The notes under the pieces: model-generated | What the model saw: the letters and a program-made list of their open reading frames with translations, nothing else | Told to the model about the DNA's origin: nothing | Databases searched by the model: none | Source: Sphingopyxis lindanitolerans | GTDB lineage: Bacteria > Pseudomonadota > Alphaproteobacteria > Sphingomonadales > Sphingomonadaceae | DNA: 64,000 nt | Assembly (NCBI RefSeq): GCF_002993885.1 | Contig: NZ_CM009578.1 | Span: forward strand, 2,874,009 to 2,938,008 | Direction of reading: 5' to 3' | Made by a program: the position numbers and the translations under genes | Shown: one piece after another, positions 2,486 through 27,020 of the stretch | Layout of the letters: each line of letters opens with the position of its first letter | Position numbering within the stretch: position 1 is the stretch's first letter

Positions 2486-4405
<1,920 letters not shown>

Positions 4406-22739: not shown

Positions 22740-23753
22740 TCAATTCAGCCCATGTTTCTTCAGCGCGTGGCGAATCTGGTCATAGCTCAGCCCCAGCGCC
22801 TCGGCGGCGATCTTCTGGTTGTAGCGGCAGCGCGCCATCGTGTCGGCGAGGATCTGTTTTTCATAGCCGTCGACCGCGGCGCGCAGGTCGCTGACTGCGC
22901 CCGACGGCGGCGCGACCGGGACGGTTTCGGTCATCGCGGCGGGCTCGACGGGCGCAGCGGGTTTGCTACCTGCCGGCTGCCACGGGCTTGCGAAGGGGTC
23001 GAAGGTCAACGCATCGACCGGCCGCTCGGGATCGGCCCAGCGATAGATGGCGCGCTCGATGACGTTGCGCAGTTCGCGGACATTCCCCGGCCAGTCGTGC
23101 CCCTCCATCGCCGCGAGCGCGCGCGGGCCGAAGCCCGGCCACTCATCCCAGCCGAGCACTGCCGCCATGCGCTGCCCGAAATAGGTGGCGAGCACCTCGA
23201 TGTCGCCTTCGCGCGCGCGCAAGGGGGGGAGGGTGATGACCTCGAACGACAGCCGGTCGAGCAGGTCGGCGCGAAAGCGGTTCTGTGCGACCAGCGCGGG
23301 CAGATGCTCGTTGGTCGCGGCGACGATGCGGACGTCGACGCGCACCGGGCGCGAGGCGCCGACGCGCGTGATCTCGCCATATTCGACCGCGCGCAGCAGC
23401 CGCTCCTGCGCGCCCGATGACATCGTCGCCAACTCGTCGAGGAACAAAGTGCCGCCGTCGGCCTCCTCGAAGCGGCCGGCGCGGCTGCGCGTCGCGCCGG
23501 TGAAGGCGCCCGCCTCGTGCCCGAACAATTCGGCCTCGATCAGCGTTTCGGGCATCGCGGCGCAGTTCAGGATGACATAGGGCTTGTCCCAGCGCGCCGA
23601 CAGGCGATGGAGGCGTTCGGCGATCAACTCCTTGCCGGTGCCGCGCTCGCCGATGACGAGGACCGGTCGATCGAGCGTCGCCGCCTGGCTCGCGCGCTCG
23701 ACCGCGTCCTGAAAGGTCGCCGACTGGCCGATGAACTGCGTTTCGCGCTCCAT
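22740..23753 (-). CDS. pspF: Sigma54-dependent activator PspF
   Basis: A 337-residue enhancer-binding protein with no receiver domain, as in PspF. The AAA+ domain spans about residues 5-240, with Walker A GERGTGKE, sigma54-contact loop GAFTGA (ELFGHEAGAFTGATRSRAGR, shown as landmark GAFTGATRSR), Walker B TLFLDEL and arginine-finger region NRFRADLLDRLSF. A Fis-type HTH closes the protein (NQKIAAEALGLSYDQIRHAL). The ATG at 23753 is preferred over a TTG six bases earlier. It is divergent from the psp operon, which it should activate unless held by PspA. Confidence 0.92.
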   Translation of the reverse strand: MERETQFIGQSATFQDAVERASQAATLDRPVLVIGERGTGKELIAERLHRLSARWDKPYVILNCAAMPETLIEAELFGHEAGAFTGATRSRAGRFEEADGGTLFLDELATMSSGAQERLLRAVEYGEITRVGASRPVRVDVRIVAATNEHLPALVAQNRFRADLLDRLSFEVITLPPLRAREGDIEVLATYFGQRMAAVLGWDEWPGFGPRALAAMEGHDWPGNVRELRNVIERAIYRWADPERPVDALTFDPFASPWQPAGSKPAAPVEPAAMTETVPVAPPSGAVSDLRAAVDGYEKQILADTMARCRYNQKIAAEALGLSYDQIRHALKKHGLN

Positions 23754-23781: not shown

Positions 23782-23796
23782 ATTGGCAAGCCAAAT
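23782..23796. promoter_or_regulatory. Candidate PspF upstream activating site
   Basis: ATTGGCAAGCCAAAT is a near-perfect palindrome about 58-72 bp upstream of the -24 element. A second TTGGCAAAAT copy lies about 20 bp further up. Placement between pspF and the sigma54 promoter fits an enhancer that would also autoregulate pspF. Confidence 0.45.
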
Positions 23797-23852: not shown

Positions 23853-23869
23853 TTGGCACGCTTCCTGCA
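23853..23869 (+). promoter_or_regulatory. Sigma54 (-24/-12) promoter of the psp operon
   Basis: TTGGCACGCTTCCTGCA carries GG at 23855-23856 and GC at 23867-23868, separated by exactly 10 bases, matching TGGCACG-N4-TTGCA closely. Transcription should begin near 23880, about 50 bases before the first small gene. Confidence 0.82.
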
Positions 23870-23929: not shown

Positions 23930-24070
23930 ATGAAGACGCATTTTGCCCAGGCCGCCACTTTCGCGCTCAGCGCGCTTGGAGCGCTGGCCATCGTCGTCGG
24001 CGTGATCGACCAGCCGAAGCTCGGTTACGATGCCGCTGCAGTTACCCCGGCGGTCAGCCAATTGGTCTGA
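23930..24070 (+). CDS. 46-residue membrane peptide, first gene of psp operon
   Basis: A short frame of 46 codons plus TGA, starting ATG 23930 with a strong AGGAAGG 6 bases upstream. The protein has one hydrophobic helix (about residues 8-25, FALSALGALAIVVGVI) and a short Ala/Val-rich tail, YDAAAVTPAVSQLV. It lies between the sigma54 promoter and pspA, so it should be induced with them. No family is recognised. It could be a small inner-membrane peptide or a leader whose translation affects the hairpins just downstream. Confidence 0.6.
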   Translation: MKTHFAQAATFALSALGALAIVVGVIDQPKLGYDAAAVTPAVSQLV

Positions 24071-24159: not shown

Positions 24160-24822
24160 ATGGGTATTTTCTCTCGCACCCGCGACATCATCGCCGCCAA
24201 CGTCACCGACTTGCTCGACCGTGCGGAAGATCCCGAAAAGATGATCCGCCAGATCATCTTCGAAATGAACGAGACGCTCGTCGAAGTCCGCGCCTCCGCC
24301 GCGCGCACGATCGCGGACCAGAAGGAAATGCGCCGCCACATCGCCAAGCTCGAAAGCCTGCAGGACAGCTGGAAGGAAAAGGCCGAACTCGCGCTGTCGA
24401 AGGACCGCGAAGACCTCGCCACCGCCGCGCTCGTCGAAAAGCAGAAGGCCGGCGACATGGCCGAAAAGCTGAAGGCCGAGATCGCCGTCCTCGACGACGC
24501 GCTCAAGGGCTATGAGAATGACATCGCCAAGCTGCAGAAGAAGCTCAGCGAAGCCCGCGCGCGCCAGTCGAGCGTCGTCAACCGCCTCGAGAGCGCCGAA
24601 AATCGCTACAAGCTGCGCGAGATGACCAACGGCGACCGCGTCGAGGATGCTTTCTCGCGTTTCGAAATCCTCGAACGCCGCGTCGACGAAGCCGAAGGCC
24701 GCGCCGATGCGCTGGGCCTCGGCTACAAAAAGTCGCTCGACGAGGAAATCGCCGAGCTGCAGTCCGCCGACAAGGTCGCCGACGAACTCGCCGCGCTGAA
24801 AGCTGCGCAGGCCAAGAAGTAA
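24160..24822 (+). CDS. pspA: Phage shock protein A
   Basis: A 220-residue PspA/IM30 (ESCRT-III-like) protein. It has an N-terminal amphipathic helix (MGIFSRTRDIIAANVTDLL) for membrane binding, then long coiled coils through residue 200, with the family segment AEDPEKMIRQIIFEMNETL. It protects stressed inner membrane and inhibits PspF in the resting state. The start at 24160 is preceded by ACAGGAG. It is the second gene after the sigma54 promoter, with pspB 12 bases downstream. Confidence 0.95.
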   Translation: MGIFSRTRDIIAANVTDLLDRAEDPEKMIRQIIFEMNETLVEVRASAARTIADQKEMRRHIAKLESLQDSWKEKAELALSKDREDLATAALVEKQKAGDMAEKLKAEIAVLDDALKGYENDIAKLQKKLSEARARQSSVVNRLESAENRYKLREMTNGDRVEDAFSRFEILERRVDEAEGRADALGLGYKKSLDEEIAELQSADKVADELAALKAAQAKK

Positions 24823-24834
24823 GGAGCCGGACCG

Positions 24835-25110
24835 ATGGAAGAGATCATCATCGTCCCGATCGTCATCGGCACCCTCTTCCTCGGTCTGCCCTGGCTGATC
24901 CTCCACTACATCACCAAGTGGAAACAGGCCAAGACGCTGACCGGAGAGGACGAGCAACTGCTCGACGAACTATATGATACGGCGCGCCGGCTCGAAAACC
25001 GCCTGCACACCGTCGAACGCATCATCAGCGCCGACCATCCCGATTTCCGCCCTGCGGTGCGGAGCGATGAAGACCTGGCGCAGCTCGAAAATACAAGCAG
25101 GAGGAATTGA
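24835..25110 (+). CDS. pspB: PspB-like envelope stress membrane protein
   Basis: A 91-residue protein with one N-terminal membrane helix (about residues 5-24, VPIVIGTLFLGLPWLILHYI), the short basic link KWKQAK, then a helix GEDEQLLDELYDTARRLENR ending VERIISADHPDFRP. This follows the PspB plan: membrane anchor plus a cytoplasmic leucine-zipper helix that relays stress with PspC. It starts 12 bases after pspA and ends one base before pspC. Confidence 0.88.
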   Translation: MEEIIIVPIVIGTLFLGLPWLILHYITKWKQAKTLTGEDEQLLDELYDTARRLENRLHTVERIISADHPDFRPAVRSDEDLAQLENTSRRN

Positions 25111-25111
25111 G

Positions 25112-25492
25112 ATGTCTGCCAGCCGCACCAAATTCTATCTCGACAAGCAGAACGCCAAATGGAGCGGCGTGTGCGCGGGGATCGCGGACTATAGCGGGAT
25201 CGACGTCCTCTGGGTGCGCGTCGGCGCGGTCCTCCTGACCTTGATGGGTGGCTTCCCCTGGACGCTGGTCGCTTACTGGATGGTCGCCTGGATGGGAACG
25301 CCCAAGCCTTTCGCCCTCTATGGCTCGAACGAGGAAGCCAAGTTCTGGCAGGGCGTGCGCTCGAATCCCAGCGCCTCGACCCGCGACATTCGCTCGCGCT
25401 TTCGCGACATCGACCGCCGGCTCGCCGACATCGAACAATATTATACCAGCCACAACCGCCGCCTCGCCGACGAGATCGACGCGCTGCGCTGA
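25112..25492 (+). CDS. pspC: Envelope stress protein PspC
   Basis: A 126-residue PspC-domain protein. The family pattern is KFYLDKQNAKWSGVCAGIAD (N-terminus), then YSGIDVLWVRVGAVLLTL and a membrane helix through about residue 62 (WTLVAYWMVAWM). The C-terminal third is helical and ends RRLADEIDALR, which closely resembles the C-termini of the small proteins encoded downstream. The start at 25112 is set by an excellent AGGAGG. It should sense membrane stress with PspB and release PspF from PspA. Confidence 0.9.
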   Translation: MSASRTKFYLDKQNAKWSGVCAGIADYSGIDVLWVRVGAVLLTLMGGFPWTLVAYWMVAWMGTPKPFALYGSNEEAKFWQGVRSNPSASTRDIRSRFRDIDRRLADIEQYYTSHNRRLADEIDALR

Positions 25493-25539: not shown

Positions 25540-25839
25540 ATGAATTTCGGAGGCCCCCTTTTTGTCCTGACCATCGTCGCGCTGTCGATCGGCGGCTGGA
25601 TGTTCACAACCTGGATTCGCGCCAAGCACGGCTATCCGGTCGAGAATGAATGGGGCGGCACGGTTCATCGAACCGACCCCGACGCTGATCGAAAAATTGC
25701 GCTGCTGACCGACGACAACGCCAAACTCGCGGGCCAGATCGGCCGACTGGAAGAGCGCATCGCGGTGCTCGAACGCATCGCGACCGAAGAAGGCGGGCGA
25801 GCCGCACAGCTCGCCGACCAGATCGACCGCCTGCGCTGA
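25540..25839 (+). CDS. PspB-like small membrane coiled-coil protein 1
   Basis: A 99-residue protein: membrane helix at about residues 6-25, then FTTWIRAKHGYP (22-33), a short polar linker and a coiled coil at 50-99. The core LEERIAVLERIAT (70-82) and the ending LADQIDRLR recur in the next genes. The plan (one TM plus a cytoplasmic zipper) equals PspB. The start at 25540 has AGGGAG about 10 bases upstream. No named family; I infer a paralogue of the PspB-type adaptor, co-transcribed with pspABC (47-base gap after pspC). Confidence 0.72.
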   Translation: MNFGGPLFVLTIVALSIGGWMFTTWIRAKHGYPVENEWGGTVHRTDPDADRKIALLTDDNAKLAGQIGRLEERIAVLERIATEEGGRAAQLADQIDRLR

Positions 25840-25852
25840 TAAGGAAAAGATC

Positions 25853-26170
25853 ATGAACCTCGATATTCTGACCACCATCGCTCCCGTCATCGCCATCATC
25901 GGCGTGGCCGGGGTCGTCGGCTGGGTCTTCACTACCTGGCTGCGGATCAAGAACGGTTATCCGCTCGACGGCGCCTGGGGGCAGGCGGTCTATCCCAAGA
26001 CCAGCGACGAAACGGTGGAGCGCGTCAAGCTGATAAGCCAGGAAAATGCCCAGCTGCGCGCCGAACTCGGCTCGGTCAAGGATCGCCTCGCGGTGATCGA
26101 GCGTATCGTCACCGACGACAGCAACCGGCTGAGCCACGAGATCGAGGCGCTGCGGCGCCCGGCGAACTGA
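25853..26170 (+). CDS. PspB-like small membrane coiled-coil protein 2
   Basis: A 105-residue protein. A membrane helix at about residues 6-28 is followed by FTTWLRIKNGYP (26-37), which differs from protein 1 by three residues. An aromatic/Pro linker (WGQAVYPKT) leads to a coiled coil at 55-102 containing KDRLAVIERIVT and ending LSHEIEALR. Together with the gene before it, it looks like the most recent duplication in the set. The gap between them is 13 bases and the RBS is AAGGAAAAG. Confidence 0.72.
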   Translation: MNLDILTTIAPVIAIIGVAGVVGWVFTTWLRIKNGYPLDGAWGQAVYPKTSDETVERVKLISQENAQLRAELGSVKDRLAVIERIVTDDSNRLSHEIEALRRPAN

Positions 26171-26183
26171 GGAGGCCCGCGCC

Positions 26184-26435
26184 ATGGAAAACATGCTCTA
26201 CGCGCTGATCCCGCTCGCTCCGTTCATCGTCGCCGGCCTCTGGATCTGGACCCGCCATCAGCGCAAGATGCTCGACAAGCAGTCGGAGATGACCGCCGAA
26301 AAGGCCGCGCAATATGCGGCGCACACCGAACGGCTGGAGGAACGCGTCCGCGTCCTCGAACGCATCGCCACCGACCGCGGCGTCGACCTGGCCGACGAAA
26401 TCGAAAAGCTGCGCGATACGCCGCCGCTCAACTGA
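26184..26435 (+). CDS. PspB-like small membrane coiled-coil protein 3
   Basis: An 83-residue protein with a membrane helix at about residues 4-22 (LYALIPLAPFIVAGLWIW), the basic stop-transfer TRHQRKML, and a coiled coil from about 35 to 77. The shared core is LEERVRVLERIAT (51-63), ending LADEIEKLR. Of the set it is closest in size and shape to classical PspB. It lies 13 bases after gene 2, with GAGGAGG as RBS. Confidence 0.72.
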   Translation: MENMLYALIPLAPFIVAGLWIWTRHQRKMLDKQSEMTAEKAAQYAAHTERLEERVRVLERIATDRGVDLADEIEKLRDTPPLN

Positions 26436-26469
26436 ACAACGGCAAGACAGACCGAAAGGATACCTCCCC

Positions 26470-26739
26470 ATGAACCCATTTGAAATGGTCATCGGCATCG
26501 TCCTGATCGTGACGATCGGCAGCGTCGTTCGCGCCCGATATGGTGTGCGCCGGGACCCTCACGGCCGGGACTATGTCGTCAGCAGTCCTGGGGACGCCGC
26601 CGAGACCAAGGCGCTGCAGGCCGAAATCCGCGCGCTCAAGGAGCGTATCCAGGTGCTCGAACGCATCGCCACCGACAGCAACCGGGCGGCCAGCCTCGAC
26701 GAAGAGATCGAGAAGCTGCGCGACCGGTCCGTTCCCTGA
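26470..26739 (+). CDS. PspB-like small membrane coiled-coil protein 4
   Basis: An 89-residue protein: membrane helix at about residues 5-20 (EMVIGIVLIVTIGSVV), a basic/polar loop (RARYGVRRDPHGRDY) and a coiled coil at 44-85 with LKERIQVLERIAT (56-68), ending LDEEIEKLR. The core is identical at most positions to proteins 1 and 3. The start ATG at 26470 follows AAAGGATACC. The spacing after gene 3 is 34 bases. Confidence 0.7.
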   Translation: MNPFEMVIGIVLIVTIGSVVRARYGVRRDPHGRDYVVSSPGDAAETKALQAEIRALKERIQVLERIATDSNRAASLDEEIEKLRDRSVP

Positions 26740-26765
26740 GACCCTGACGAAGAAGGAGCCGATTC

Positions 26766-27020
26766 ATGGGCACCATGACGTCTGACCTCGCTACCGACCT
26801 GATCATGGCCGCGGTCGCGCTGAGCGCGCTGGCCATCATCAGCCTTGTGGCGCTGCGTGGCTGGCGCGACTGGATCCAGCTCAAGCGCGAGGAGCTGGCC
26901 GCCGGCCATGGCGCCGCGCAGGATCCCACCGTGCCGCACGCCGGATCGCGGATCGAGATCGCCGACCTCAAGGAACGGCTGCGCAAGCTGGAAGCCATCG
27001 CGGCCGGGGTCGATCTCTGA
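26766..27020 (+). CDS. PspB-like small membrane protein 5 (diverged)
   Basis: An 84-residue protein. The membrane helix lies deeper (about residues 11-31, DLIMAAVALSALAIISLVAL), followed by a basic amphipathic stretch (RGWRDWIQLKREEL) and a short terminal coil. LKERLRKLEAIAA (68-80) corresponds to the LxERxxVxERIxT core of its neighbours but has lost the ERI triad and the following helix. It is the last gene of the run, with AAGGAG before the start and a GC hairpin after the stop. Confidence 0.65.
   Translation: MGTMTSDLATDLIMAAVALSALAIISLVALRGWRDWIQLKREELAAGHGAAQDPTVPHAGSRIEIADLKERLRKLEAIAAGVDL

Follow-up and report, generated by a model that had tools for sequence, protein, structure and literature searches.

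Small predicted membrane proteins with zipper helices encoded in an array behind pspABC across Sphingomonadaceae

The phage shock protein (Psp) response to membrane stress is textbook knowledge, although the way in which damage is sensed by PspB and PspC, and PspA released, is to our knowledge not settled. In Gammaproteobacteria, PspD, PspE and PspG are accessory proteins of the Psp regulon. The DNA analysed here is a window of 64,000 nucleotides (the whole stretch; contig NZ_CM009578.1, positions 2,874,009 to 2,938,008) from the 4.37-Mb genome of Sphingopyxis lindanitolerans, in which pspABC is followed by an array of five small genes, g1 to g5. The array pattern goes wider than this single window and recurs in nearly all sampled Sphingomonadaceae. 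We regard it as fairly probable that the array extends the Psp operon throughout the family, its zippers pairing with PspC, PspB or each other and so holding or tuning PspA at the stressed membrane.

A complex of PspB and PspC sits in the inner membrane of Yersinia; in the on state, PspA is bound by the C-terminal domain of PspC in the cytoplasm, and PspF is thereby set free (passages of PMC5596341). According to titles in the reference list of that paper, PspB-PspC cytoplasmic contacts silence the response, and homo- and heterodimers are formed. PspD, PspE and PspG are named as Psp accessory proteins in passages of PMC12440182. Like PspB (PF06667, TIGR02976), the array proteins have a single N-terminal transmembrane segment (TM), a C-terminus predicted inside and an ERxxxLE-type coil, and are probably encoded in the same operon. 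They differ from PspB in lying below the family cut-offs, in the linker with GYP and WG of classes A and B (five classes, A to E, are described below), in the extra LxxEI[DE]xLR end of most A-D proteins, and in occurring as several classes within a genome that also has a true PspB. Their helix appears similar to that of the PspC tail (TIGR02978), and within Sphingomonadaceae A-D have the end motif in common with that tail; unlike PspC, which has two TM (passages of PMC11237479), they have one predicted TM and no PF04024 match.

PspB duplicates in the psp operon, possibly the same phenomenon, are mentioned in one clause by Ravi et al. 2024 (PMC11237479), whereas the array, its classes, their order, the shared zipper end and the distribution are not described in the passages of that paper covered here. 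The zipper segment that the array proteins have in common with PspB and PspC suggests that putative extra adaptors have been added to a well-known stress system. The accession cited for the duplicates in that account may be an Erythrobacter protein. No account of the array, classes, order or shared PspC end was found among the papers (at most 20 per search) listed by literature searches that covered few subscription journals; the initial annotation of the window had likewise known of no description of such an expanded set.

Array genes, their classes and distribution

The lengths, overall span and common strand of the five genes behind pspC are those given by the initial annotation (Table 1), and the gaps before g1-g5, counted from pspC, measured 47, 13, 13, 34 and 26 bases, all within the 13-47 bases that it had reported for most of them. 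All five genes start with ATG and have a purine-rich, AGGA/GGAG-like sequence resembling a ribosome site upstream; GC content at third codon positions was 0.75-0.88. In translation, each protein has a single membrane helix near the N-terminus and, at the C-terminus, a helix carrying some form of LxERxxxLERI. The cores quoted in the initial annotation, LEERIAVLERIAT, KDRLAVIERIVT, LEERVRVLERIAT, LKERIQVLERIAT and LKERLRKLEAIAA, were all present, as was FTTWxRxKxGYP, common to proteins 1 and 2. The curated cut-offs were passed by pspF, pspA, pspB and pspC and by none of g1-g5, and no family of Pfam or NCBIfam, the two collections searched, names g1-g5. The nearest named relatives of g1 were from Sphingopyxis.

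The family survey included 79 Sphingomonadaceae genomes of 78 genera, with a PspC match in 75 and over the cut-off in 74. From these, 73 loci were used, one per genus, leaving out the window itself, one genome below the cut-off and four with no match. The initial annotation had named absence beside pspABC in relatives as grounds for refutation; 72 of the 73 loci had 1-8 array genes behind pspC (68 had at least two). Counting coil-bearing genes only, the total was 303, with 0 genes in 1 locus, 1 in 4, 2 in 4, 3 in 13, 4 in 22, 5 in 16, 6 in 8, 7 in 4 and 8 in 1. The 231 intra-array spacers comprised 90 overlaps, 134 of 0-60 bases and 7 longer ones. Gene starts in relatives were picked by a script favouring TM-giving starts, and the TM count was repeated without such a choice: a hydrophobic segment was present in the open frame of 302 of the 303 genes, whatever start was chosen. 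In 296 of 298 array proteins, lysine and arginine were more frequent on the C-terminal side of the TM than on its N-terminal side, which predicts a cytoplasmic C-terminus.

Iterated class profiles assigned 334 of 340 proteins to classes A to E with a margin of more than 8 bits; this margin is partly built in, since the window genes served as seeds of the iteration. Within the 73 loci, class A was present in 34, B in 52, C in 57, D in 68 and E in 61. A tree was built from the 334 array proteins, 20 PspB and 20 PspC, with deep branches that are uncertain because the alignment had only 88 columns. It contained a B clade (support 0.94), an E clade (0.95) and a D clade with one outsider (0.88), and 42 of 43 A proteins fell inside a group of 101 (0.87), which, judged by its size, presumably holds A together with the 59 B. 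Gene order was largely fixed. Class E was last in all 61 loci having it (at most 27 in 2000 order shuffles), D stood immediately before E in 58 of 58 cases and A immediately before B in 22 of 27; the place of C with respect to A and B varied. Because the classes are distinct and their order is largely fixed, the array appears to be an old, specialised set and not a recent burst of copies.

Within Sphingopyxis, g1 was found in 34 of 35 genomes besides its own, the one lacking it being 85% complete. The order A-B-C-D-E was read in 60 of 79 named loci retrieved by g1, a set biased to class A by the retrieval and with some contigs ending within the array. Searches of the window's genome for further copies with g1 and with the class D profile gave only g1-g4, and the class C profile gave g1-g4 and one chance-level match (E-value 0.29); no search was made with class E.

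For the other families of the order, 30 loci were examined from 56 genomes with a PspC match, 20 of them with 4.5 kb downstream as a rule and 10 over 1.5 kb; 25 had no array gene and 5 had one. Among the first 20, 16 had none, and in three from a sister family (f8) pspC was followed, after 267-351 bases, by a single class D gene; the remaining locus had a PspB-like gene. Nine of the 10 further loci had none and one, again from f8, had a single gene. Across Alphaproteobacteria, the class D profile matched in at least 7 of 241 genomes, in many of which only the best 22 first-look candidates were scored: four Sphingomonadaceae (the window's genome included), one orphan pair in another family and two weak matches. 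Class E had at least 7999 homologues at E ≤ 0.001 among the best 8000 scored candidates; where named, the 120 listed were hypothetical, uncharacterised or putative membrane proteins, one also being called Phage shock protein B.

The sigma54 promoter-like site, downstream of which the initial annotation had placed the genes, was located upstream of pspA and was conserved in 81 of 99 related loci at up to two mismatches (4.6 expected) and in 68 at up to one. Inside the array, no such site was found at up to one mismatch in any of 71 loci (0.8 expected). In Zymomonas mobilis, higher expression of pspA, pspB and pspC is reported with ethanol or on xylose, with no mention of genes behind pspC (passages of PMC3495753, PMC8645129).

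Zipper core and end

In BLASTP with a database of eight proteins (low-complexity filter and composition correction off), g1-g4 matched one another with E-values of 7e-24 to 1.6e-6, and g5 was linked weakly (best E-value 0.008, to g2). Against PspC, the values were 1e-4 for g1, 2e-5 for g2 and 0.007 for g3; against PspB, they were 0.13 for g1 and 0.028 for g3, with none listed for g2, so that all three were closer to PspC than to PspB. Comparison of class profiles from relatives gave 98.2-99.9% for every A-D pair, and the A-B and A-D alignments spanned most of their length; a PspA coiled-coil control reached at most 7.9% with any class. Classes A-D are homologous. The class E profile gave 95% with C and with D, 15% with A and 12.5% with B. 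The relatedness assumed in the initial annotation therefore stands for A-D, with E tied in only through C and D.

Of g1-g5, g3 alone matched the PspB models at E < 0.001, below the cut-offs (PF06667 23.1 bits, cut-off 25.6; TIGR02976 25 bits, cut-off 51.7). In a set of 73 array proteins at E ≤ 0.01, PF06667 matched 8 (best E-value 5.1e-5), TIGR02976 16 (best 8.1e-8) and the PspC model TIGR02978 23; from a comparison of E-values with g3, the best PspB matches of the set also lie below the cut-offs. The PspC domain PF04024 had no match listed at E ≤ 1 for any of g1-g5, and the cut-offs of FtsL/DivIC-type families were not reached (g4: FtsL 13.3 bits, cut-off 50; DivIC 10.5 bits, cut-off 28.9). 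When compared with the PspC tail and the PspB of the same loci (PspB profile from 65 of 80 loci), the class profiles gave 96 and 61% for B, 91 and 55% for D, 88 and 75% for C, and 93 and 92% for A, respectively.

The core and end motifs were worded after inspection of the window. The strict core pattern was present in 122 of 237 A-D proteins and 55 of 61 E proteins, and in none of 73 family PspC. The LxxEI[DE]xLR end occurred in 199 of 237 A-D proteins and 68 of 73 family PspC tails, and in 0 of 61 E, 0 of 72 PspB and 0 of 20 plus 0 of 10 other-family PspC; among 3783 control open reading frames (ORFs), from which those matched by the coil profile had been excluded, it was found in two. From these counts, the A-D coil is read as being PspB-type in its core and PspC-type at its end. 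The Sphingomonadaceae PspC tail, as far as the sequences indicate, departs from that of the sister families in the same direction as the A-D end. The array may have arisen out of pspB, out of pspC or out of pieces of the two.

In the AlphaFold2 model of g2 (mean predicted local distance difference test score, pLDDT, 76; predicted template modelling score 0.33), helices covered residues 3-34 and 50-101, and the block-mean pLDDT of residues 61-100 was 84-93. The structure models contained helices only, and another model had a mean pLDDT of 56. A search of solved structures with PspC gave no matches; one with class C gave six (E-values 0.003-0.38, the best being potassium channels), which were taken as chance.

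Proposed role and alternatives

The reading of the array as an extension of the Psp operon involves the following steps. When PspF fires the sigma54 promoter, the array proteins would probably be made along with PspA, PspB and PspC. The five classes would be single-pass inner-membrane proteins with the C-terminus predicted inside, and in A-D the cytoplasmic zipper would combine a PspB-like core (LxERxxxLERI) with an end like that of PspC (LxxEI[DE]xLR). These zippers probably pair with PspC, PspB and one another, which would give PspA several membrane docking or release partners where otherwise there is one PspB-PspC pair. Class E, always at the array end and with a truncated zipper, may cap the set or recruit. 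With a PspC-like tail on a single anchor, and with genes that follow pspC and have no separate sigma54 site, the array proteins would be further partners in the PspA exchange. Extra parts with similar zippers, in conserved order and with a matching PspC end in nearly every sampled genus, amount to a natural experiment on the residues of partner choice.

Several results weigh against this proposal. One family locus had no array gene and four had a single one, and class C was not one clade in the tree (66 of 87 together). The class C heptad pattern was weak (0.50 vs 0.42 shuffled), and 38 of 237 A-D proteins lacked the strict end motif. Class E gave 0.4 and 0.3% with the PspB and PspC profiles and 0.1% with the PspC tail, and family PspB itself gave only 3% with the family PspC tail and 30% with whole PspC. 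The strict core pattern was absent from all 58 family PspB vs 7 of 14 other-family PspB. A coil profile trained on array proteins only, which is the fair one because an earlier profile had PspC tails in its training and hence inflated PspC scores, was low on family PspC (median 9.2 bits, n = 73) and family PspB (8.6 bits, n = 58). The contrast in PspC tails may be one event, since one clade is compared against others. Neither expression nor interaction results for the array genes turned up in the literature searched, and the passages of the Zymomonas accounts (PMC3495753, PMC8645129) name ZMO1061-1065 only.

A more elaborate form of the proposal, in which defined A-D hetero-zippers and the co-adapted PspC tail form an ordered PspA-docking platform capped by E, is put forward only tentatively and is rather doubtful. 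If true, Sphingomonadaceae would have exchanged the two-part PspB-PspC switch for a multi-part switch of lineage-tuned composition (0-8 genes in the 73 loci).

The array proteins could also be structural effectors, themselves stabilising either the membrane under stress or some other envelope machine and taking no part in PspA/PspF regulation, which we consider unlikely. The 3' place in the operon and the variable gene number would suit such a role, and in Yersinia PspB and PspC themselves guard against secretin toxicity (passages of PMC3467454). So would the faster evolution. The median ratio of nonsynonymous to synonymous substitution rates (dN/dS) was 0.15 for A, 0.30 for B, 0.45 for C, 0.28 for D and 0.17 for E, vs lower values of 0.06 for pspA, 0.04 for pspB and 0.06 for pspC; the values, from 22 of 44 close loci, mostly Sphingopyxis, are not independent because each locus was compared against the window. 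The highest single value was 0.92 (class C). The genes g1-g5 look real and constrained, yet freer to change than pspABC. The zipper end, however, matches the family's own PspC tail, which points to pairing with Psp partners; an effector role would still be compatible with such pairing.

Plain PspB duplicates acting as interchangeable PspB subunits would have the observed single N-terminal TM and predicted inside C-terminus, the TIGR02976 matches, and the highest score of the array-only coil profile, which was on other-family PspB (median 15.8 bits, n = 14) and only 1.4 bits (n = 20) on other-family PspC. Interchangeable copies would not, however, give classes with a conserved order, no array protein of the window reached a PspB cut-off and, judged by E-values, those of the set of 73 lie below it too, the PspC model matched more of that set, and the end motif is absent from PspB. 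This explanation was tested and lowered, and is distinctly unlikely. The serial duplication of a PspB-type adaptor proposed in the initial annotation fits as duplication, but the array proteins are not simply PspB-type. The weak spurious coil matches in the set of 73 at E ≤ 0.01 (bZIP 7, ZapB 3, FtsL 2) and the low values of class E with A and B speak for unrelated small membrane proteins that share an operon and have converged on a coiled coil. Convergence was rejected for A-D by the PspA coil control, and the A-B and A-D alignments over most of the length and the conserved gene order also weigh against it; it is highly improbable overall, though it may hold for class E.

Features of the window and further observations

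The coordinates of the psp locus are collected in Table 1.

Table 1. Features of the psp locus in the window (positions counted from the first letter of the window).
Feature	Position	Strand	Evidence
pspF, sigma54 activator, divergent	22740..23753	-	TIGR02974 465.8 bits, cut-off 443.55
sigma54 (-24/-12) promoter-like site TGGCAC-N5-CTGCA, TGGCACGCTTCCTGCA	23854..23869	+	Match and conservation upstream of pspA
Hydrophobic leader ORF, 46 aa, between sigma54 site and pspA	23930..24070	+	ORF and tblastn
pspA	24160..24822	+	TIGR02977 271 bits, cut-off 242.95
pspB	24835..25110	+	TIGR02976 91 bits, cut-off 51.7
pspC, tail end RRLADEIDALR	25112..25492	+	TIGR02978 119.7 bits, cut-off 104
Array gene 1 (g1), class A, 99 aa, TM + GYP linker + zipper	25540..25839	+	
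Array gene 2 (g2), class B, 105 aa, TM + GYP linker + long helix	25853..26170	+	Includes AlphaFold2
Array gene 3 (g3), class C, 83 aa, most PspB-like of the five	26184..26435	+	PF06667, TIGR02976 below cut-off
Array gene 4 (g4), class D, 89 aa, class present in most family loci (68/73)	26470..26739	+	
Array gene 5 (g5), class E, 84 aa, last wherever present, no LxxEIxxLR end	26766..27020	+	

By tblastn, the leader ORF was matched in 52 of 179 loci when E-values of up to 1 were accepted; six of the 52 were among the 100 loci L086-L185. Ten loci were scanned for a hydrophobic ORF at the leader position: six had one ending in LA, one had one ending otherwise and three had none. Zymomonas ZMO1062 (pspD, induced with psp according to passages of PMC8645129) might be a counterpart of this ORF. 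A palindrome, TTGGCAAGCCAA, lies at 23783-23794, some 60 bases before the sigma54 site on its upstream side, and is a candidate PspF site by position only.

The sole array-less locus among the 73 (L107) still has RLAREIDALR near the end of its PspC tail. In the sister family f8, a single coil gene lay about 270-350 bases behind pspC in four loci (L175, L181, L184 and L082; class D in the three assigned), and two more loci (L178 and L084) had no coil gene behind pspC. The single-gene state of f8 is possibly the ancestral state of the array.

The orphan pair matched by the class D profile in another family (genome G357) lies at L280:3227-3421 and 3479-3709 on the minus strand, and its proteins have a hydrophobic N-terminus and an ERxxVLE-like coil. 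Judged by eye, the pair lies by genes resembling dut and coaBC, and no pspABC was noticed among the ORFs of the 7.5 kb examined.
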